A stretch of DNA of 61,968 nt. It comes from Desulfobacterales bacterium. Lineage in GTDB: Bacteria; Desulfobacterota; Desulfobacteria; Desulfobacterales; JAAELO01. Under the pieces are notes generated by a model that was not told the origin of the DNA, made no database searches, and saw only the letters and a list, made by a program, of their open reading frames with translations. The position numbers were made by a program, and so were the translations under genes. This document shows positions 34,613-54,354 of the stretch, piece after piece (position 1 is the first letter of the stretch; the number at the start of each line of letters is the position of its first letter). The stretch is from positions 1 through 61,968 of the forward strand of contig JAAELO010000714.1 in the NCBI GenBank assembly GCA_024226555.1, written 5' to 3'.

Positions 34613-34640
34613 TAAAGTTTTATGAAATAAATGTCGATAA
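34613..34640 (+). promoter_or_regulatory. Sigma-28 (FliA) promoter of the flagellin gene
   Basis: TAAAGTTT (34613-34620), 12 bases, then GTCGATAA (34633-34640). This is almost exactly the flagellar sigma-28 consensus TAAAGTTT-N11-GCCGATAA (one substitution, one extra spacer base). It is 142 bp upstream of the flagellin ATG. Confidence 0.85.
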
Positions 34641-34782: not shown

Positions 34783-36393
34783 ATGAGTCTTGTTATAAAC
34801 ACAAATATAGTTTCTGAAAGAGCTATAAACCAGCTCTCTCGTACTGGTGAAGCTATTTCCAAATCTGTTGGTAAGGCATCTTCAGGAAAAAGAATAGTTA
34901 CATCAGGAGATGATGCTGCGGGGTTAGCAATTGCTGATAGAATGGAATCCCAACACAGAGGGTATTCACAGGCAATCAGAAATGCATCGGATGGAATTTC
35001 AATCGTGCAAACTGCTGATGGGGCCCTGTCTGAATATGTAAACATAATAAACACAATAAGAACGAAAGCCATTCAGGCTGCAAATGCTGTTAATTCGTCT
35101 CAGGATAGAATGTCCATTCAGGATGAGATAAACCAGCTTCTACAGGAATCAGAAAGAATATCAAATGACACAATGTTTAATGAATCCAAACTTCTTACGG
35201 GAGAATTTTCAAATAAAAAACTTCATGTGGGAGCAGAGGGTAATGAGAACATAGTACTTTCAATTCCAAGTGTTGCTCCTTGTGATATTGGCCATACGGA
35301 ATCAATGAATTTGAAGATAGGAGATGGTTGTTCATCTATTAAGGTAGATTATGAGAATTTTCTTCCACAGGCAAAGGAAGCTTTTGAATATGCAAAATCC
35401 ATATGGGAAACAATCTTAGGGTCATCCGTTGAAATTAAAATTAACGCAGAAATGAAAAATATGGATTCAGGTTCAATTTTAGGCGGATCAATTAATAAAA
35501 CACCTGTTATACTTGGAAAAACCGCCTTTGTTCCAGCTCTTTCAAATGCTATTACAGGATCGGACAACAATGGAAGTGAAGAAGAGATTTCGATGGTGTT
35601 TAACACAGATCCATCTGTTGACTGGTATTTTGGAACTAAAGGAAAGCCTGGTGAAAATCAATATGACTTTGCAACTGTTGTAATGCATGAGATTGGTCAT
35701 GGATTAGGTATCTCAAGCCAATGGTGGGATAGCTTTACTTCAGTTTATGATAGTTTCCTTCTACATGGAGAATCTGGCAAAACCATTGAAGAGATGGATG
35801 AGATTATCGAAAGATATTTTGCTGTTCAAAGTAATGATATTACATGGAAAGGTGAGAAAGGTATTGAAGCTGATGGTGGTCTTAAACCTGTGATTTATGC
35901 TCCTTACAATTATAGATTTGGTTCAAGTATCTCTCATCTTGATGAATACATTTATAATAAAGAGAGTGGAAATGCCTTAATGACACCTGCTACTGAACAG
36001 GGAAATGCTATACACACTCCAGGCCCTGTTGTACTTGGTATGTTACAGGATATGGGCTGGACAGGAACGACTAATAAGGAAGGACTAAAAGGTGTTAATG
36101 TTCTTAATTACCGTGAAGCAATGAATACAATTAAATCATGCGACAAAGCAATCCTTGAGATTGATCAGACCAGAAGTAAAATGGGTGCTCTTCAGAATCG
36201 TCTAACTTCAACAGTTTCTAATCTTTCAAATGCACATATAAATATCTCATCTGCAAAATCGGTTATTAGTGATTTGGATTACGCCTCTGAAACCAGTAAC
36301 CTTGCGAGACTTCATGTATTAAATGAAGCAGGCCTTGCTGCTGTTGCAGGTGCAAACAAAACTCCCGGTGTAATCCTTTCATTGTTAGCCTGA
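34783..36393 (+). CDS. Flagellin with inserted zinc-metalloprotease domain
   Basis: 536 aa. Residues 1-160 are a normal flagellin D0/D1 N-terminus (SLVINTNIVSERAINQLSRT, SSGKRIVTSGDDAAGLAIAD). The last about 90 residues are the matching C-terminus (NLSNAHINISSAKSVISDLD, ARLHVLNEAGLAAVAG). In place of the variable D2/D3 domain, about residues 165-435 hold a metalloprotease-like domain: H302-E-x-x-H306 in MHEIGHGLGI, a conserved SHLDE (H385) and an ALMTP Met-turn-like segment (M400). Preceding WYFGTKGKPGENQYDF is typical of secreted zinc proteases of this type. Expected to be assembled on the filament surface as a proteolytic flagellin. Transcribed from a sigma-28 promoter. No other flagellar genes here. 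Confidence 0.88.
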   Translation: MSLVINTNIVSERAINQLSRTGEAISKSVGKASSGKRIVTSGDDAAGLAIADRMESQHRGYSQAIRNASDGISIVQTADGALSEYVNIINTIRTKAIQAANAVNSSQDRMSIQDEINQLLQESERISNDTMFNESKLLTGEFSNKKLHVGAEGNENIVLSIPSVAPCDIGHTESMNLKIGDGCSSIKVDYENFLPQAKEAFEYAKSIWETILGSSVEIKINAEMKNMDSGSILGGSINKTPVILGKTAFVPALSNAITGSDNNGSEEEISMVFNTDPSVDWYFGTKGKPGENQYDFATVVMHEIGHGLGISSQWWDSFTSVYDSFLLHGESGKTIEEMDEIIERYFAVQSNDITWKGEKGIEADGGLKPVIYAPYNYRFGSSISHLDEYIYNKESGNALMTPATEQGNAIHTPGPVVLGMLQDMGWTGTTNKEGLKGVNVLNYREAMNTIKSCDKAILEIDQTRSKMGALQNRLTSTVSNLSNAHINISSAKSVISDLDYASETSNLARLHVLNEAGLAAVAGANKTPGVILSLLA

Positions 36394-36579: not shown

Positions 36580-37041
36580 TCAAATTATCCCGTCCACCAA
36601 GCTATATTTTTCCATAATATAAGCCTTGTTTTTTTTAATGGATGGCCTGAGCTCATTCTTTACCCATGTTTGTAGATCATCATAGCTTGCATAAAATGAA
36701 GATAGTGAAGCATCAAGACCAAATTTCTACATGGCTGAATTCCCGCTATATTCATTTTTTAGAAAATCTCTGTAAGTAAACTCCCCTAGATCAAATTTAA
36801 CAGATGTAACATCCCCTTTGGCTGAGGTTTGTTCAACAAGTTCTCCAAAAGCATTATTCTTATATTTCCAGAATCCCATATCCGGATCTGTCATTGTGGT
36901 TTTAAATCCTGTTGTACCATCAAAGCCTTTTGTTTCATCCCTTACTTTTCTCTGCATGGAATCGTAATAAGATGTCACTGGAGATAATCCGTCTGATGTT
37001 TCGGTAACTCTGTACTTTCCATAGTCAGACCAGGCGTACAA
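36580..37041 (-). pseudogene. RHS/YD-repeat protein relic with in-frame stop
   Basis: The minus-strand frame 37041-36730 encodes YD-repeat sequence (DPDMGFWKYKNNAFGELVEQ, SAKGDVTSVKFD). It then changes to unrelated-looking sequence (EFTYRDFLKNEYSGNSAM), hits TAG at 36727-36729 and continues in the same frame for 48 more codons (KFGLDASLSSFYASYDDLQT, ENELRPSIKKNK-like) to TGA at 36580. No start or signal sequence. It is a short leftover of a large RHS protein joined to another coding tail. The rest of 36562-37614 holds only a hairpin. Confidence 0.6.
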
Positions 37042-44787: not shown

Positions 44788-45738
<951 letters not shown>

Positions 45739-45802
45739 AAACCAGCCAATTAAATGAAACTTATAAGACAACTTTGAATAATGGAACATGGAGATATTTA
45801 AA

Positions 45803-46150
45803 ATGATAATGATTCGTTCAATAATAAGACCAGAAAAGGTTGATAGCGTTTTAACTTCACTTATGGAAGCTGGATTTCCTGCAGTTACAAAATATCCTGT
45901 GGCTGGGCGTGGTAAACAGCGCGGTATAAAGATAGGGGAAATCACATATGATGAAATTCCAAAAGAGATGTTGATGGTAGTAGTTAAAAAATCAGATAAA
46001 GACTATGTGCTTGAAATAATAATGAAGGCTGCAAAAAGCAGTAATACTGGAGCTTTTGGAGATGGTAAAATATTTATTAGTGAAGTTTCAGAAGTATACA
46101 CAATTAGCTCTGGTGTAAAAGAAACGGAAGCTGAAGAGGTTCCGGTATGA
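45803..46150 (+). CDS. nifI1: PII-like nitrogenase regulator NifI1
   Basis: 115 aa from ATG 45803. GGAG at 45790-45793 is correctly spaced for it, and MIMIRSIIRPEKVDSVL matches family N-termini; an upstream in-frame ATG at 45788 overlaps that RBS. PII fold with T-loop PVAGRGKQRGI and C-terminal TGAFGDGKIFI. With NifI2 it forms a complex that inhibits nitrogenase when ammonium is present and is released by 2-oxoglutarate (established in methanogens). Overlaps nifI2 by four bases. Confidence 0.94.
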   Translation: MIMIRSIIRPEKVDSVLTSLMEAGFPAVTKYPVAGRGKQRGIKIGEITYDEIPKEMLMVVVKKSDKDYVLEIIMKAAKSSNTGAFGDGKIFISEVSEVYTISSGVKETEAEEVPV

Positions 46151-46521
46151 AGGAAGTAATTGCTGTCTTAAGAATGGATATGATGACAAAGACAAAAAAA
46201 GCCCTTTCAGAAATAGATATCCCATCACTTCATGCCAGTGCTTGTCTTGGAAGAGGTAAAGGTCTTGTTGATATGATGGTTCTTAAAGGTGCTGAAAAAG
46301 GATATGAAGAAGCTATTGAGCAGCTTGGTAGTGGTGGAAGACTTATTCCCAAGAGATTACTTAGTATAGTTCTTCCTGACAAAAAGGTGGATCAGGTTAT
46401 AAAATTGATAATTAAAGTAAATAAAACAGGTAAATCCGGGGATGGAAAAATATTTGTGATGCCAATAATTAACGCACATAGAGTAAGAACCGGAGAATCC
46501 GGAGAAGAAATTCTGGATTAA
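46147..46521 (+). CDS. nifI2: PII-like nitrogenase regulator NifI2
   Basis: 124 aa, ATGA overlap with nifI1. PII-like with KEVIAVLRMDMMTKTKKALS, CLGRGKGLVD, LIPKRLLSIVLPD and KTGKSGDGKIFVMP. Partner of NifI1 in post-translational switch-off of the nitrogenase encoded next door. Whether it is nucleotidylylated is unknown; NifI proteins generally are not. Confidence 0.94.
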   Translation: MKEVIAVLRMDMMTKTKKALSEIDIPSLHASACLGRGKGLVDMMVLKGAEKGYEEAIEQLGSGGRLIPKRLLSIVLPDKKVDQVIKLIIKVNKTGKSGDGKIFVMPIINAHRVRTGESGEEILD

Positions 46522-46569
46522 AAATTTATAGGAAACGATACGTAAAGAGAAACTATTGAGGTGAATACA

Positions 46570-48216
46570 ATGTCTGAGTTAGTTATTGAAAAATATAAAG
46601 AAAAAACCGACCCTGAATTTATTAAAAAAGAATTAATAAAAAAATATCCAACCAAGGTAGCACGTAAGAGGTCCAAACAAATTGTCGTTAATAAAGTTGA
46701 TGGTGATAAGAATGTTCCTGAAGTGTTTGCAAATACAAGAACCATTCCGGGTATTATAACTCAGAGGGGTTGTACATATGCAGGTTGTAAAGGTGTTATT
46801 TTAGGGCCAACACGTGACCTTGTAAATATAGTACATGGACCAATTGGATGTAGTTTTTACGCATGGCTAACCAGAAGAAATCAAACCAGATTAACGTCTG
46901 AAGATGATGAGAACTACATGACCTACTGTTTTTCAACAGATATGCAGGAATCAGATATTGTGTTTGGTGGAGAGAAGAAATTAAAAGATGCTATTCAGGA
47001 AGCTTATGATCTTTTTCATCCCAAGGCTATAAGTATTTTTTCGACATGTCCGGTAGGTCTTATTGGGGATGATGTCCATGCTGTGTCACGAGAGATGAAG
47101 GAAAAGCTTGGTATAAATGTTTTTGGATTTTCATGTGAAGGTTACAAAGGTGTTAGTCAATCAGCTGGACACCATATTGCAAATAATGGTGTCTTTAAAC
47201 ATATCATTGGTGAAGATGACTCTATAGGTGATGGTGAGTACAGGATAAATCTTTTAGGTGAGTATAATATTGGTGGAGATGGTTTTGAAATAGACAGGAT
47301 TCTTGCAGATTGTGGAATTTCAGTTGTTTCAACATTTAGTGGAAATTCGACTTATGATCAGTTTGCAAACTCTCATACCGCAGATCTTAATACAATAATG
47401 TGTCACAGATCTATAAACTATGTTGCAGAGATGATGGAGAAGAAATTTGGAATTCCGTGGATAAAAATAAATTTTATTGGTGCAAAAGCAACGGCAAAAT
47501 CTTTAAGAAAAATAGCTGAATATTTTGGAGAAGAAAAATTAATTAAAAAAGTTGAAGAAGTAATTAAAAAAGAAATGCCTTATGTTGATGATGTAATGAG
47601 TGCTGCAAGGAAAAAATGTGAAGGTAAGAAGGCAATGCTTTTTGTAGGTGGCTCACGGGCACACCATTATCAGGAACTTTTTAAAGAATTAGGAATGGAA
47701 ACTGTTTCAGCAGGTTATGAATTTGGGCATAGGGATGATTATGAAGGAAGGAAAGTACTTCCTTCCATAAAAATTGATGCTGATAGTCGTAATATTGAGG
47801 AACTCGAAGTTTCTAAAGATCCAAAGAGATATAAACCAAGAAAAACTAAAGAAGAGTTAAAAGCACTTACAGATCAGGGTTTCACATTTGAAGCGTATGA
47901 CGGAATGATGTCTGAAATGGAGCAGGATTCCATAATAATTGATGATTTAAACCATCATGAAACTGAAGTGTTAATAAATCTTTGTAAACCGGATATAATT
48001 TGTGCAGGCATAAAGGAGAAGTATGTTGTACAGAAAAGTGGGGTACCTTTGAAACAGTTACATAGTTATGATTCTGGTGGTCCATATGCAGGATTCAAGG
48101 GTGCGATTAATTTTTATAAAGATATCGACAGAATGGTTAATTCCAAAGTGTGGGGCTACATTAAACCTCCATGGGAGTCGGATCCGGAGCTATCAGCAAA
48201 ATACGCATGGGAATAG
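46570..48216 (+). CDS. nifD: Nitrogenase MoFe protein alpha subunit NifD
   Basis: 548 aa from ATG 46570. GAGGTG at 46558-46563 acts as its RBS, so the GTG inside it is not the start. P-cluster ligands C68 (RGCTYAGC), C94 (PIGCSFYAW) and C160 (STCPVGLIGDD). FeMo-co ligands C278 (MCHRSINY) and H498 (LHSYDSGGPYAGF). The roughly 50-residue insertion around 395-450 (RKVLPSIKIDADSRNIEELE) is the one known from clostridial-type NifD. A molybdenum enzyme rather than Vnf/Anf is likely, since no nifD-nifG-nifK order is seen. Confidence 0.95.
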   Translation: MSELVIEKYKEKTDPEFIKKELIKKYPTKVARKRSKQIVVNKVDGDKNVPEVFANTRTIPGIITQRGCTYAGCKGVILGPTRDLVNIVHGPIGCSFYAWLTRRNQTRLTSEDDENYMTYCFSTDMQESDIVFGGEKKLKDAIQEAYDLFHPKAISIFSTCPVGLIGDDVHAVSREMKEKLGINVFGFSCEGYKGVSQSAGHHIANNGVFKHIIGEDDSIGDGEYRINLLGEYNIGGDGFEIDRILADCGISVVSTFSGNSTYDQFANSHTADLNTIMCHRSINYVAEMMEKKFGIPWIKINFIGAKATAKSLRKIAEYFGEEKLIKKVEEVIKKEMPYVDDVMSAARKKCEGKKAMLFVGGSRAHHYQELFKELGMETVSAGYEFGHRDDYEGRKVLPSIKIDADSRNIEELEVSKDPKRYKPRKTKEELKALTDQGFTFEAYDGMMSEMEQDSIIIDDLNHHETEVLINLCKPDIICAGIKEKYVVQKSGVPLKQLHSYDSGGPYAGFKGAINFYKDIDRMVNSKVWGYIKPPWESDPELSAKYAWE

Positions 48217-48327
48217 CTAATAATCAGCTTTTGAGCGAATTACTGCGTGACTCGAAAAATTATTAACCTCGAAATATAAAACATGATAAGGGCAAAGATA
48301 ACTAAATAGCAGGCTTGTAAAATTCCT

Positions 48328-48430
48328 CCATTTACAGCGTTAAATTATACAATTCAAACCCTCGATGTATAATTTATACGCCTCGGGTTTGAATCGATAA
48401 TTACGCCTTGTAAATGAAGTTTTTTACTTC
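48328..48430 (+). promoter_or_regulatory. Nested hairpin in the nifD-nifK spacer
   Basis: The 331-bp spacer folds: outer arms CATTTACA (48329-48336) and TGTAAATG (48409-48416), inner arms ATTCAAACCC (48352-48361) and GGGTTTGAAT (48385-48394), and a central GTATAA/TTATAC. A T-run (GTTTTTTAC) follows. nifD and nifK are usually tightly linked, so this may be a partial terminator or RNA-processing site setting subunit ratio. It is not a member of the foldback element family. Confidence 0.65.
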
Positions 48431-48547
48431 GCCATATTAAAGATTATTTATTAAGGACATATAAGTTTAAAAATCGTTATAAAGAATAAAATATGTTGTT
48501 GAAACCCCGAACAATTTAAACAATGTATCCAGAGAGGAGAATTTAAA

Positions 48548-49924
48548 GTGTTACTAAAACATACACCGGAAAAAATAAATGAGCGGAAAGCACTTGTTAT
48601 AAATCCCGCCAAGACATGCCAGCCCATTGGTGCAATGTATGCGGCACTTGGCATTAATAGTTGTCTGCCCCATAGCCATGGGTCGCAAGGATGCTGTTCA
48701 TATCACAGGAGTACTTTAACAAGACATTATAAAGAGCCGGTTATGGCTGCGACAAGTTCTTTTACAGAGGGATCTTCAGTTTTTGGAGGTCAGTCCAACC
48801 TTATTCAGGCATTTAATAATATTTTTACTGTCTATGAGCCTGAAGTAATAGCAGTTCATACTACCTGTTTATCAGAAACAATAGGTGACGATGTTACACA
48901 GATCTCTAAAAAGGCTCTTGATGATGGGAAAATCCCTGATGGTAAATATGTGATCCATGCAAGTACTCCAAGTTATGTGGGTTCACATGTTACAGGTTTT
49001 GCAAACATGTGTAATGGTATGGTGAATTGCCTTGCTGAAAAATCAAATGTAAAATGCGATTTTCTTAATATTATACCAGGATATGTTGAACCATCAGATA
49101 TGGAGGAGATCAAAAAAATTATTGAGGCTTTAGGTGTTAAATATATCATGTTTCCTGATACATCAGGAATACTTAATGGTCCTCAGACCGGTAAATATAG
49201 TATGTATCCAAAGGGTGGTGCAACTGTAGCTGATATAAAACGAACAGGTGATGCTATTGGAACATTAGCACTTGGAAAAACAGCTTCATCACTTGCAGCA
49301 AAGACACTTGATACAAAATTTAAGGTACCTTGTGAAATTATTGATCTACCAATAGGGTTAAGTTCAACAGATACTTTTATAGATACTTTAAGAAAAATTG
49401 CAGGAACATCAGTACCTGATTCAATAACCAGAGAAAGAGGACAGCTCGTGGATATCATAACAGATATGCATCAGTACTTCTTTGAAAAGAAAGTTGCTGT
49501 CTTTGGAGACCCTGATCAGGTTATTGCGTTAACAGGTTTTCTTGTAGATCTGGATATGTGTCCAATCCATATAGTAACAGGAACACCTGATAAAAAGTTT
49601 GAAGAGAAGATAAAAAAGATTACAGAGAGTGTTCCATATGAAGTAAATGTAAAGGCAAAAGGAGATACATTTCTTCTTCACCAGTGGATTAAAAATGAAC
49701 CTGTTGATCTTTTAATAGGTAATACATACGGAAAATATATTGCAAGGGATGAAGACATACCATTTCTTAGGTTTGGTTTTCCAATTATTGATAGAATCGG
49801 GCACTCATATTTTCCTACAGTTGGTTATAAAGGAGCGATGCATTTGTTAGTTAACATTTTGGATCTTCTTCTAACAAGGGTTGATAGAGATGCTCCTGAA
49901 GAAAGCTTTGAGTTAGTATTGTAA
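48548..49924 (+). CDS. nifK: Nitrogenase MoFe protein beta subunit NifK
   Basis: 458 aa, GTG start after GAGGAG. P-cluster ligands C24 (KTCQPIG), C49 (GSQGCCSYHR) and C107 (HTTCLSETIGDD) are present, as is SFTEGSSVFGG. It lacks the about 50-residue N-terminal extension of Azotobacter NifK, as in clostridial and archaeal-type enzymes. Forms the alpha2-beta2 MoFe protein with NifD. Confidence 0.95.
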   Translation: MLLKHTPEKINERKALVINPAKTCQPIGAMYAALGINSCLPHSHGSQGCCSYHRSTLTRHYKEPVMAATSSFTEGSSVFGGQSNLIQAFNNIFTVYEPEVIAVHTTCLSETIGDDVTQISKKALDDGKIPDGKYVIHASTPSYVGSHVTGFANMCNGMVNCLAEKSNVKCDFLNIIPGYVEPSDMEEIKKIIEALGVKYIMFPDTSGILNGPQTGKYSMYPKGGATVADIKRTGDAIGTLALGKTASSLAAKTLDTKFKVPCEIIDLPIGLSSTDTFIDTLRKIAGTSVPDSITRERGQLVDIITDMHQYFFEKKVAVFGDPDQVIALTGFLVDLDMCPIHIVTGTPDKKFEEKIKKITESVPYEVNVKAKGDTFLLHQWIKNEPVDLLIGNTYGKYIARDEDIPFLRFGFPIIDRIGHSYFPTVGYKGAMHLLVNILDLLLTRVDRDAPEESFELVL

Positions 49925-50017
49925 TACTAATACTTTGAGATGGAAGTATAAATAAAACAATACATTTATAAATACTTACAGGTTTTATAAAAAATAGTTT
50001 TATGAATTTTATACCAG

Positions 50018-50090
50018 TTTAGCCCGGGTTTTTTTATAAAATCCAATTATCCATCTCTGATATTTCATGGTGAAAAAGCCCGGGCTTAAA
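50018..50090 (+). promoter_or_regulatory. Hairpin in the nifK-nifE spacer
   Basis: AGCCCGGGTTTTT (from 50021) pairs with AAAAAGCCCGGGCT (50073-50086) across a roughly 45-base loop. It is a GC-rich stem in an AT-rich spacer of 198 bp. It could limit read-through into nifENB, whose products are needed in lower amounts than NifDK (inference). Confidence 0.55.
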
Positions 50091-50122
50091 TTTTGTATAT
50101 TACAGGATAGGATATTAGGAAA

Positions 50123-51511
50123 ATGATTACTGATTTAAAAATACTCAAAGAGAGAGAAAGACAAGTCTATTTAAAAGGTGAAGAGCCTTTTGATATGAAG
50201 TGTGATGTCAAGAGTACTGCCGGATCAGTAAGTCAACGAGCATGTGTTTTTTGTGGTTCAAGGGTTGTTTTATATCCTGTTGCTGATGCATTGCATCTGG
50301 TCCATGGACCAATAGGATGTGCAGCCTATACCTGGGATATTAGGGGGGCTCTGTCATCTGGTCCTGAACTTCACAGAAAAAGTTTTTCCACTGATCTGAC
50401 AGAAAAGGAAGTAATTTTTGGTGGAGAGAAGAAACTCTATCAAGCTCTAAATGAGTTAATAGAAAAGCACTCTCCAAAAGCTGCTTTCGTATATTCAACA
50501 TGTATTGTCGGAATAATAGGTGACGATGTGGGTGCTGTGGCAAAAAGAGTTGCAAAGGAAAAAGATATTCCTGTTATCCCTGTTCATTCAGAAGGATTTA
50601 AGGGAACCAAAAAAGATGGTTATCAGGCAGCTTGTACTGCTTTACTTAAGCTCGTTGGTAAAGGTGACATTAAAGGCATAAGTAAAACAAGTATTAACAT
50701 ACTTGGTGAATTTAATATTGGTGGTGAAGCCTGGATGATAACTGAGTACTATAAAAAAATGGGTGTTGAAGTTGTTTCAGTTTTGACAGGGGATAGTAGA
50801 ATTGAAAATATCAAAAAGGCTCATGGTGCATCTTTAAATGTCGTTCAGTGTTCAGGTTCAATGCTTTATCTCGCAAAGAAAATGGAGGAAGAGTACGGCA
50901 TTCCATTTATCAGGGTTTCATATTTTGGATTAGAGGATACCTCAAAGGCTCTATATGATGTTGCTTCCATCTTCAAAGATAATACTGATGTAATGGAAAA
51001 AACAAAAATTCTTGTGAAGGAGGAGGTTTTAAAAATATATGAAGATCTCTTATTCTATAAGAAACATCTCACAGGAAAGAGAGCCGCAATATATGTAGGC
51101 GGAGCTTTTAAAGCTTTTTCTTTAATAAAAGCTTTGAAATTTCTTGGAATGAAAACTGTGCTTGTGGGTTCGCAAACAGGAAATGATGAAGATTATGAGA
51201 TTTTAAGGGATATGTGTGATGATGGAACAGTCATACTGGATGATTCAAATCCCATTGAACTATCTAAATATATAGTTGAGAAAAAAGCCGATCTTTTCAT
51301 TGGAGGAGTAAAGGAGCGTCCAATAGCTTATAAAATGGGAATTGGGTTTTGTGACCATAATCACGAAAGAAAGACACCTCTTGCTGGTTTTAAAGGGATG
51401 TATAATTTTGCAGATGAAGTTTATTCAACTGTGATGAGCCCTGTATGGAAGTTTTGTCCAATAAGGCCGGAACTTTATGATAATCCCTTTTTAAAGAGGG
51501 GAATCCTCTAA
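50123..51511 (+). CDS. nifE: FeMo-cofactor scaffold subunit NifE
   Basis: 462 aa. NifD-like scaffold with cluster-binding Cys in RACVFCGSR, GPIGCAAYTW and STCIVGIIGDD, and LNVVQCSGSMLYLA where NifD has its FeMo-co Cys. H in CDHNHERKTPLAGFKGM. With NifN it matures the NifB-cofactor. The last codons and the TAA (GGG GAA TCC TCT AA region) come from the left end of a foldback element, so the extreme C-terminus (about GIL) is element-derived. Confidence 0.95.
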   Translation: MITDLKILKERERQVYLKGEEPFDMKCDVKSTAGSVSQRACVFCGSRVVLYPVADALHLVHGPIGCAAYTWDIRGALSSGPELHRKSFSTDLTEKEVIFGGEKKLYQALNELIEKHSPKAAFVYSTCIVGIIGDDVGAVAKRVAKEKDIPVIPVHSEGFKGTKKDGYQAACTALLKLVGKGDIKGISKTSINILGEFNIGGEAWMITEYYKKMGVEVVSVLTGDSRIENIKKAHGASLNVVQCSGSMLYLAKKMEEEYGIPFIRVSYFGLEDTSKALYDVASIFKDNTDVMEKTKILVKEEVLKIYEDLLFYKKHLTGKRAAIYVGGAFKAFSLIKALKFLGMKTVLVGSQTGNDEDYEILRDMCDDGTVILDDSNPIELSKYIVEKKADLFIGGVKERPIAYKMGIGFCDHNHERKTPLAGFKGMYNFADEVYSTVMSPVWKFCPIRPELYDNPFLKRGIL

Positions 51512-51626
51512 AAATTAGAAGTTTGGCTTAATTACAAGGCTTGAATAAATGTAACGAGCTGATTTTATGACAGTTATATTTTTTCGTAACGCAGTAATTT
51601 AGACAAAAAGAAATTATTAGAGATTC
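51498..51626 (+). mobile_element. Foldback element overlapping the nifE stop
   Basis: Divergent copy (GGGGAATCCTCTAAAAATTAG to TTATTAGAGATTC) covering the whole nifE-nifN spacer. Its left end encodes the nifE stop at 51509-51511, and nifN starts 16 bases after it, with AAAGGAG immediately after the right end. No flanking repeat is preserved. Confidence 0.78.
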
Positions 51627-51641
51627 ACAAAGGAGTTAAAT

Positions 51642-53009
51642 GTGATTGAGGATACTGTCGTAAAAAAAGATTCATATACTTCTACAACTAATGCATGCAA
51701 ACTTTGTACTCCACTGGGAGCCTGTATTGCATTTAAGGGAATTAAAGGGGCTATCTCTTTAATGCATGGTTCTCAGGGTTGTGCAACATACATAAGAAGG
51801 TACCTTATAAGTCACTTTAAGGAACCTATAGATATTGCTTCATCAAACTTTTCAGAGGATACTGCAATATTTGGTGGAGGAGCGAACTTAAAACAAGCTG
51901 TTCTTAACGTTTCAAATCAATATAAACCGGAACTTATTGGTATCTCTACTACCTGCTTAAGTGAAACCATAGGTGATGACGTTGGTTTAATCATTAAGAG
52001 TATGGCAACTGAAATTGATCATGATTATAAAGTAGTACATGTTTCAACACCTTCTTACACTGGAACACATGAAAGTGGATATCGGGGAACTCTAAGAGCT
52101 ATTGTTGAACAAATAGCAACAGAAGAAAAAAGTAGTGACAGATCAGTAAATTTCATATCCGCAATGCTTTCTCCTGCGGATATGAGGTATTTTAAAGAAA
52201 TTCTGGAAGATTTCCAAATTAGATACAGATTTCTTCCGGATTACTCTGAGACACTGGATGGTGCTTTATGGGATGAGTATAAAAAAATCCCCTCAGGTGG
52301 GACAACAATAGATGAAATAGCAAATATGTCAAAAGCCATTGGTACTATTGAACTTGGATATATAGGTAGCGAAAGTGAAAGCGTATCAAAACTACTCAAA
52401 GAAAAATTTAATATTAAAGATTACAGAGTTGGGATTCCTGTTGGTGTTGAAGCAACTGATAATTTGTTAAAAATTATTTCTGAGATTTCAGGAAATAATG
52501 TTCCGGCAAAATTCCTTAATGAGAGAGGACGACTTTTGGATTCCTATGTTGACGGACATAAATATGTTTTTGGTAAAAGATGTGTTCTATATGGAGAGGA
52601 AGATTTTGTAGTCGCAATTGCATGTTTCTTATCCGAAATAGGAATTATTCCGGTTTTATGTGGATCAGGTGGCAAGAGTGGAAAACTTAAAAAGGTGATT
52701 TCAAGTCGAATAGATGGGTTTGATGAGAAGCAAATTAAAGTGATGGACGGGGTAGATTTTTCTGAAATAGAAGAGATATCGAAACAATTAAAACCTGATT
52801 TTTTTATAGGAAATTCTAAGGGCTACTCCATTTCAAGAGAAATGAATATTCCCTTAATAAGAATTGGATTTCCTGTTCATGACAGATTTGGTGGCAGTAG
52901 AATTCTTCATACAGGATATAGAGGAACCCAGGCTCTTTTTGATTTAATAGTTAATACTCTTCTAAAGGAGAAGCAGGATAGATCCAGCACAGGTTACAGT
53001 TACTTATAG
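51642..53009 (+). CDS. nifN: FeMo-cofactor scaffold subunit NifN
   Basis: 455 aa, GTG start seven bases after AAAGGAG. NifK-like: NACKLCTPLGACIAFKGI, GSQGCATYIRRY, STTCLSETIGDD, SNFSEDTAIFGG. Pairs with NifE. Its TAG stop (53007-53009) is made at the junction with a solo left end of the foldback element. Confidence 0.94.
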   Translation: MIEDTVVKKDSYTSTTNACKLCTPLGACIAFKGIKGAISLMHGSQGCATYIRRYLISHFKEPIDIASSNFSEDTAIFGGGANLKQAVLNVSNQYKPELIGISTTCLSETIGDDVGLIIKSMATEIDHDYKVVHVSTPSYTGTHESGYRGTLRAIVEQIATEEKSSDRSVNFISAMLSPADMRYFKEILEDFQIRYRFLPDYSETLDGALWDEYKKIPSGGTTIDEIANMSKAIGTIELGYIGSESESVSKLLKEKFNIKDYRVGIPVGVEATDNLLKIISEISGNNVPAKFLNERGRLLDSYVDGHKYVFGKRCVLYGEEDFVVAIACFLSEIGIIPVLCGSGGKSGKLKKVISSRIDGFDEKQIKVMDGVDFSEIEEISKQLKPDFFIGNSKGYSISREMNIPLIRIGFPVHDRFGGSRILHTGYRGTQALFDLIVNTLLKEKQDRSSTGYSYL

Positions 53010-53033
53010 GGAACCTTTAATAATTAATTAATT
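53009..53033 (+). repeat. Solo left end at the nifN stop
   Basis: GGGAACCTTTAATAATTAATT begins at the last base of the nifN stop codon. No right half; nifB starts 35 bp later. Confidence 0.65.
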
Positions 53034-53067
53034 TTTTTAGTAATTATAAAAAAAGGAGGGAAGGAAG

Positions 53068-54354
53068 ATGAACCCCCACATAGATATAGAAAAGCATCCT
53101 TGCTTTAATAAAGATGCAAGACATAAATCAGCAAGAGTCCATCTGCCAGTTGCACCTGGTTGCAACATACAGTGCAAATTCTGTAACAGGAAATTTGATT
53201 GTGTGAATGAAACAAGACCAGGTGTAACAAGCGGAACACTTACTCCTTATCAGGCTATTGTATATTTAAGTCATGTGATGGAGGAATTAAAGAATGTGTC
53301 TGTATTTGGAATAGCAGGCCCTGGAGATCCTTTTGCTAACCCTGTAGAAACTATGGAAACTCTTAGGTATGTTAGGTCAACTTATCCTGAAATAATTTTA
53401 TGCCTGGCTTCAAATGGTCTAAACATTCTTCCTTATATTGATGAATTGAAAGAACTCAATATAAGTCATGTAACCATAACAGTTAATGCTCTTGAAACTG
53501 ATATTGCCGAGAAAATTTACTCCTGGGTTAGATATGGAAAGAAGGTTTTAAGGCCAAAAGAGGGTGTTAAAATACTTCTTTCAAATCAGATGCAAGCTAT
53601 AAGGAAACTCAAAGAGAAAGATATAGTAGTCAAAGTAAACTCTATCGTAATTCCAGGAGTTAATGATTTTCATATTGCTGATATAGCTGAAGAGATGTCA
53701 AAATTAGGAGTGGATATCTTTAACACCATGCCCTACTACCCAAATAAAGGTTCGGAATTTGCAGATATTGAGCAACCTTCAAAGAAGCTTATTAAAAATA
53801 TAAGAGATGAAGCAGGTAAGCATATTCCCCAGATGATGCATTGCTCGAGATGCAGAGCAGATGCAGTTGGATTGATTGGTGAAAAAACAAATTCAAACCT
53901 AATGGAAAAACTTAAAGTATGTGAAAGTATGCCTGATCAGCCAGATAATGTTTTTAATACTGAAAGTAAGAAAGAACATCAATACATTGCAGTTGCAACA
54001 CTTGAGGGGGTTTTAATCAATCTTCATTTGGGTGAAGCCCACTCTTTTAATATTTATGAATATATGGAAGGCAAATCAGAACTAATCGATTGCAGAGATG
54101 CTCCTGAACCAGGAAATGAAAAAAGATGGGATGAGTTGTCTAAAATTCTCCATGATTGCCATACTCTTGTAGTCAGTGATTCAGGTTTAAAGCCTGAAAA
54201 AGTTCTTAATGAAAACAATATCAATGTATTGAGGGTTGAGGGTCTCATTGAGGATACTCTTACAAATATTTTTGAAGGAAGAAGTATTCAACATCTTGTT
54301 AAAAGAGAGATTAAGCAGTGTGGTATGATGGGTAATGGTGGAGGTTGCATGTAA
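53068..54354 (+). CDS. nifB: NifB radical SAM protein with NifX-like domain
   Basis: 428 aa, ATG after AAAGGAGGGAAGG. Radical-SAM cluster C32-x3-C36-x2-C39 (CNIQCKFC), then HKSARVHLPVAPGC and GIAGPGDPFANP typical of NifB. It fuses [Fe-S] units with a SAM-derived carbide into NifB-co. The C-terminal about 110 residues (EHQYIAVATLEGVLINLHLG) are a NifX/NafY-like cofactor-binding domain, as in many bacterial NifB fusions. The tail ends in CGMMGNGGGCM. Confidence 0.96.
   Translation: MNPHIDIEKHPCFNKDARHKSARVHLPVAPGCNIQCKFCNRKFDCVNETRPGVTSGTLTPYQAIVYLSHVMEELKNVSVFGIAGPGDPFANPVETMETLRYVRSTYPEIILCLASNGLNILPYIDELKELNISHVTITVNALETDIAEKIYSWVRYGKKVLRPKEGVKILLSNQMQAIRKLKEKDIVVKVNSIVIPGVNDFHIADIAEEMSKLGVDIFNTMPYYPNKGSEFADIEQPSKKLIKNIRDEAGKHIPQMMHCSRCRADAVGLIGEKTNSNLMEKLKVCESMPDQPDNVFNTESKKEHQYIAVATLEGVLINLHLGEAHSFNIYEYMEGKSELIDCRDAPEPGNEKRWDELSKILHDCHTLVVSDSGLKPEKVLNENNINVLRVEGLIEDTLTNIFEGRSIQHLVKREIKQCGMMGNGGGCM

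Follow-up and report, generated by a model that had tools for sequence, protein, structure and literature searches.

A leishmanolysin-like metallopeptidase module within a Desulfobacterales flagellin suggests a second kind of proteolytic flagellum

The DNA analysed here, referred to as the window, is a stretch of 61,968 nucleotides (contig JAAELO010000714.1) from a Desulfobacterales genome. On its forward strand, positions 34783-36393 form an open reading frame with zero internal stops, which encodes a protease-bearing flagellin of 536 residues. The N-terminal D0/D1 part (residues 1-162; 34783-35268) is 47-51% identical to the genome's other flagellins and matches Pfam Flagellin_N over residues 5-141 (E 8.4e-37; profile positions 1-137 of 139), and the C-terminal D1/D0 part (residues 437-536; 36091-36390) matches Flagellin_C over residues 451-535 (E 6.2e-21; profile positions 2-86 of 86), both far above the cut-offs. 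These matches bear out the intact flagellin ends that the initial annotation had described around a protease domain; the complete N- and C-terminal D0/D1 regions by which a bacterial flagellin is recognised are present, and the start (MSLVINTNI) and end (GVILSLLA) of the protein resemble those of normal flagellins. Between the two ends lie a linker (residues 163-190; 35269-35352), which falls outside Flagellin_N, and a predicted metallopeptidase module (residues 191-428; 35353-36066), with homology to secreted proteases beginning at about insert residue 31-35. The outer domains of flagellins are hypervariable and often adhesive; in this protein, residues 163-436 gave no match to a family model above its curated cut-off. 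Elsewhere in the window, a short reverse-strand open reading frame directly downstream of the flagellin gene (36727-37041) resembles a fragment of an RHS-repeat protein, and positions 44866-54354 appear, from reading translations only, to hold a nitrogenase-like cluster: a gene like nifH, two gene pairs of the nitrogenase-subunit or NifE/NifN-like type, and a radical SAM protein resembling NifB.

A sigma-28-like box, TAAAGTTT-N12-GTCGATAA (34613-34640, forward strand), is situated 142 bp before the ATG and agrees with the consensus at 15 of 16 positions, its spacer being one base over the usual N11. The near-consensus promoter initially read at 34613 is upheld by this score and by the shuffling of the upstream region, in which none of 500 shuffles equalled the box; it also scores highest across both strands of the 62 kb window, and the region before the gene shows no conspicuous sigma-54 site. 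The accompanying claim of expression with the late flagellar genes stands in part: such expression is plausible given the box and a FliA homologue in the genome (G000:C154; 260.6 bits, above the cut-off), but co-expression with the genome's ordinary flagellins is unsupported, as none of them has a comparable sigma-28 box within 300 bp (9-13 of 16 positions). These other flagellins, for which a search had been proposed, number five (four on contig C11 and one on C537); the four lie in one region (L017; G000:C11:82000-100000) and are ordinary flagellins of about 600 residues, with Flagellin_IN motifs in both of those tested. The window gene and a giant flagellin gene of another genome, G714, have weak Shine-Dalgarno pairing (0.4 and -3.1 kcal/mol, respectively), in contrast to seven ordinary flagellins, whose pairing is strong (-6.6 to -13.6 kcal/mol); the weak ribosome-binding site suggests that the protease flagellin would be a minor filament subunit. 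The gene is not adjacent to flagellar genes, and the G+C content of its contig is 30-36%, compared with 34-35% for the flagellin contigs.

The sole clear relative of the insert is the NCBIfam model NF038122 ('metallo_LGF' metalloprotease), which it matches at 58.1-58.5 bits (E about 1e-15; 1.4e-15 for the 58.1-bit match); as the curated cut-off is 80 bits, the insert is related to the family and lies outside it as curated. The same model is matched by 21 of the 21 domains of alignment A4 (best E 1.2e-19). A scan of genome contigs yielded three relatives, namely two Balneolaceae proteins and one of a Sulfuricurvum assembly, that align with the insert over about 235 residues (insert residues ~31-265) at 29-36% identity (E 1e-31 to 4e-33). 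All three look secreted, judged by their N-terminal leaders; the Balneolaceae proteins bear type IX secretion (T9SS) tails and fibronectin-like repeats, and the Sulfuricurvum protein bears a trypsin domain. Profile searches within the phylum and the order added further homologues, most of them with a leader at the N-terminus, and a search of viral contigs for more homologues gave no close relative. Homology to these NF038122-related secreted proteases (L014-L016, L052-L054, L066, and others) spans the whole insert, whereas the complete homologues have a leader-like N-terminal extension, and some have the tails, repeats or trypsin domain mentioned above. The homology identifies the insert as the catalytic module of an NF038122-related family of secreted bacterial metallopeptidases with HEIGHGLG/SHLD/LMxP motifs.

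Three forward-strand motifs make up the candidate zinc site: HEIGHGLG (35686-35709) with the predicted ligands H302 and H306 and general base E303, SHLDE (35932-35946) with the predicted third ligand H385, and ALMTP (35974-35988) with the predicted Met-turn residue M400, all at the positions originally assigned to them. In an alignment of 25 distinct homologues, H302, E303, H306, H385, M400, and D423 are invariant and W426 is nearly so; because of these invariant residues and the ~235-residue alignment to independent secreted proteases, the three motifs are not a chance occurrence. Position +10 is Ser312, and the usual third His of metzincins (ten after the first) is absent. When searched against all PDB chains, the A2 profile found leishmanolysin (1lml) as its best match (E 1.3e-4), in two pieces that correspond to both zinc-site blocks (HEMAHALGF and GSAGSHIKMRNAQDELMAPA...FQDLGF), and 1lml was again the top match of the A4 profile (E 6e-4). 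HEIGHGLG aligns with HEMAHALGF of 1lml, SHLDE with GSAGSH, the block with its third zinc ligand, and ALMTP with ELMAP; in leishmanolysin (gp63), the zinc ligands are H264, H268, and H334 and the Met-turn residue is M345. What is shared with gp63 (PF01457, MEROPS M8) is HExxHxLGF, a long loop, and then GSxxSH and ELMxP, whereas the alignment is limited to these active-site blocks and the remainder of gp63 does not align. The Pfam M8 model likewise matched 7 of 21 A4 members weakly (best 3.7e-4) and did not match the window insert alone at E up to 10. A leishmanolysin-type arrangement of the zinc site is supported at residue level, the pattern HExxHxxGF, long loop, third His, and Met-turn being present with Ile for Phe in the window; AlphaFold models (mean pLDDT 36 for the insert alone and 39 for the full-length protein with three homologues) are too poor to judge the fold. 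Peptidase M10/matrixin (PF00413) was rejected at 16.5-18 bits against a cut-off of 24, the contiguous HExxHxxGxxH being broken by Ser312 at +10, and membership of M12B and M26 was rejected on weak or no Pfam matches.

Enzymatic flagella have been known as a kind since 2017. In flagellinolysin, the protease is a gluzincin of the collagenase-like type whose third zinc ligand is a distal Glu (PMC5595980), and flagellinolysins constitute MEROPS family M101 (PMC7643111); flagellin variable regions with Peptidase_M26 (17 cases) and sialidase (10 cases) inserts have also been tabulated (PMC5595980, Table 1). The latter resemble the window protein in having an enzyme domain within the flagellin variable region, and neither M26 nor sialidase gave a Pfam match in the insert at E up to 10. 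Flagellinolysin (NF033876, M101; Clostridium haemolyticum, Hylemonella gracilis) resembles the window protein in that flagellin D0/D1 ends flank a zinc metallopeptidase placed in the hypervariable region, and also in the predicted outcome, a proteolytic filament. That the window encodes an ordinary flagellinolysin is nevertheless exceedingly improbable despite the common plan of flagellin ends around an HExxH domain (PMC5595980), since NF033876 matches flagellin residues 112-145 only (37 bits against a cut-off of 205) and L043, a genuine flagellinolysin of the same phylum (G126:C8:114681-115913; 408.5 bits), aligns in BLASTP with the D0/D1 ends only (45% over residues 3-146 and 39% over 450-536), with no significant alignment to the insert between them and an hhalign probability of 0.2. 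The gluzincin site (HExxH and distal Glu) is likewise lacking: M101 has a distal Glu as third ligand, whereas the invariant distal candidate in the insert is His385, in a metzincin-type setting with a Met-turn and no detectable similarity to flagellinolysin. The view that a different protease family was recruited to the same flagellin site is supported by the NF033876, BLASTP, and hhalign results as well as by those for NF038122 and 1lml, and no end-to-end match of the insert to flagellinolysins was seen. The same phylum holds both kinds of proteolytic flagellin, that of L043 and the insert type. A metzincin flagellin is described nowhere in the papers examined, the supplement of PMC5595980 (all 61 flagellin domains) being outside this set; an uncommented earlier listing may exist there.

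The fusion is present in three genomes, representing three genera, among the few hundred genomes of the order that were sampled. G714, of another family in the order, encodes a flagellin of about 1220 residues (Flagellin_N 1.8e-40; Flagellin_C 2.2e-17) that carries the protease module at residues ~798-1058 and has a long spacer containing Flagellin_IN and hexapeptide-like repeats. In G762, from a third genus, a protein with this architecture (Flagellin_C 5.4e-23) has its C-terminal flagellin end alone visible, the contig starting inside the gene. As a separate observation, the hexapeptide-like (beta-helix type) repeats of the G714 giant (L069:6251-9910) lie between D1 and the protease and are perhaps a stalk distancing the enzyme from the filament. 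Maximum-likelihood analysis places the three flagellin inserts in one clade (ultrafast bootstrap 96), whose sister group comprises the secreted proteases of G533, G510, G462, Sulfuricurvum, and Balneolaceae; this favours a single origin for the flagellin-borne module. Of all branches in the tree, that of the window insert is the longest (1.02 substitutions per site), so the insert evolves fast. The scaffolds give a less clear picture: the D0/D1 scaffold of the window protein groups with G714 and G762 flagellins (support 0.999), apart from the five of its own genome. As small ordinary flagellins of G714 and G762 fall within this scaffold group, the module would have been either lost in them or transferred between flagellins. 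Identity between the window and G714 proteins is 45% in the insert, 33% in the C-terminal scaffold, and 47.5% in the N-terminal scaffold. Between G714 and G762, the insert has a pN of 0.29 against a pS of 0.81 (synonymous sites being saturated), and 33% of non-synonymous sites differ in the C-terminal scaffold, so that the insert is at least as constrained; by this comparison, the insert is under purifying selection. Judged from its sequence, 34783-36393 is a real, intact, and recurring protease-flagellin other than flagellinolysin.

The favoured reading, to which a probability of roughly 0.68 is assigned, is that the gene encodes a sixth, probably minor, flagellin in which the ordinary outer domains are replaced by a leishmanolysin-like, NF038122-related metzincin module that would be active on the filament. 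Sequence-level support for this reading comes from the intact assembly ends, the complete predicted catalytic set, purifying selection in two relatives, and the occurrence of the fusion in three genera; from these, we infer enzyme activity and incorporation into the filament. The alignments with secreted proteases, NF038122, and 1lml, the sigma-28 box together with FliA, and the weak Shine-Dalgarno pairing of two protease flagellins also speak for it. Counting against it are the poor AlphaFold models, the long branch of the window insert, the lower-scoring sigma-28 boxes of the genome's ordinary flagellins, and the location of the gene apart from flagellar genes. The chain would be exported unfolded via the flagellar type III channel and added at the filament tip through its D0/D1 ends, and the protease module would fold outside the cell, after export; H302, H306, and H385 would then hold zinc, E303 would act as the general base, and M400 would sit in the Met-turn. 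Sparse active protease sites would then occur along a filament composed mostly of other flagellins, the likely use being the cutting of environmental protein, or path clearing, at the surface of the swimming cell. In several secreted relatives, some tens of residues separate the leader from the catalytic module; given that the flagellin linker comprises only ~28 residues, an ordinary prodomain is unlikely in the protease flagellin, and none would be needed if the module folds only once exported. Post-export folding may thereby substitute for the propeptide that keeps secreted metzincins inactive in the cell.

Three further explanations of the locus warrant consideration. The insert may have kept a protease fold while functioning as an outer domain for binding or adhesion, its catalysis lost or irrelevant; the hypervariable and often adhesive nature of flagellin outer domains (PMC5595980) and the long branch of the window insert are in keeping with this, but all predicted catalytic residues are kept in the three flagellins while much else changes, and E303, H385, and M400 would be needless for a pure binding domain, which makes the reading unlikely. 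It is likewise doubtful that the protein is made and works off the filament, either as a monomer exported via the flagellar channel and released or by trimming itself or other flagellins: both terminal assembly regions are complete and would be needless for a merely exported enzyme, although the weak ribosome-binding site and the position of the locus apart from flagellar genes point that way, as does the testing of the Hylemonella proteolytic flagellin with flagellins as substrates (PMC7643111).

A silent gene, a decaying relic, or a contig foreign to the genome might also account for the weak ribosome-binding site and for a scaffold that does not group with the genome's other flagellins. This explanation is quite improbable in view of the intact frame and near-perfect sigma-28 box, a contig G+C content that fits that of the flagellin contigs, and the purifying selection on the homologous insert in G714 and G762. 

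In the literature examined, a single peptidase family accounts for all characterised flagella that bear a protease. It is rather likely that enzymatic flagella have a second origin, separate from that of flagellinolysin, in a secreted leishmanolysin-like metzincin that was inserted into flagellin, spread, and was kept under selection in at least three genera; if the favoured reading is true, evolution seems to have made the propeller into an enzyme at least twice. A second protease family at the same flagellin site, belonging to another protease group and with secreted relatives still found in the order, would demonstrate repeated use of the filament surface as an enzyme scaffold, and would allow the steps of the fusion to be traced from secreted protease through insertion and spread to a conserved active site. 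The 536-residue protein would, in addition, offer a small natural template for the display of enzymes on filaments. Other fusions of the protease family were also observed: in the Sulfuricurvum assembly (L015:3698-5755), the module is fused to a trypsin-like domain, which places two unrelated proteases in one secreted-type protein, and two distant family members of G770 (L071 and L073) are joined to a long repeat region resembling an autotransporter, possibly another mode of cell-surface enzyme display.
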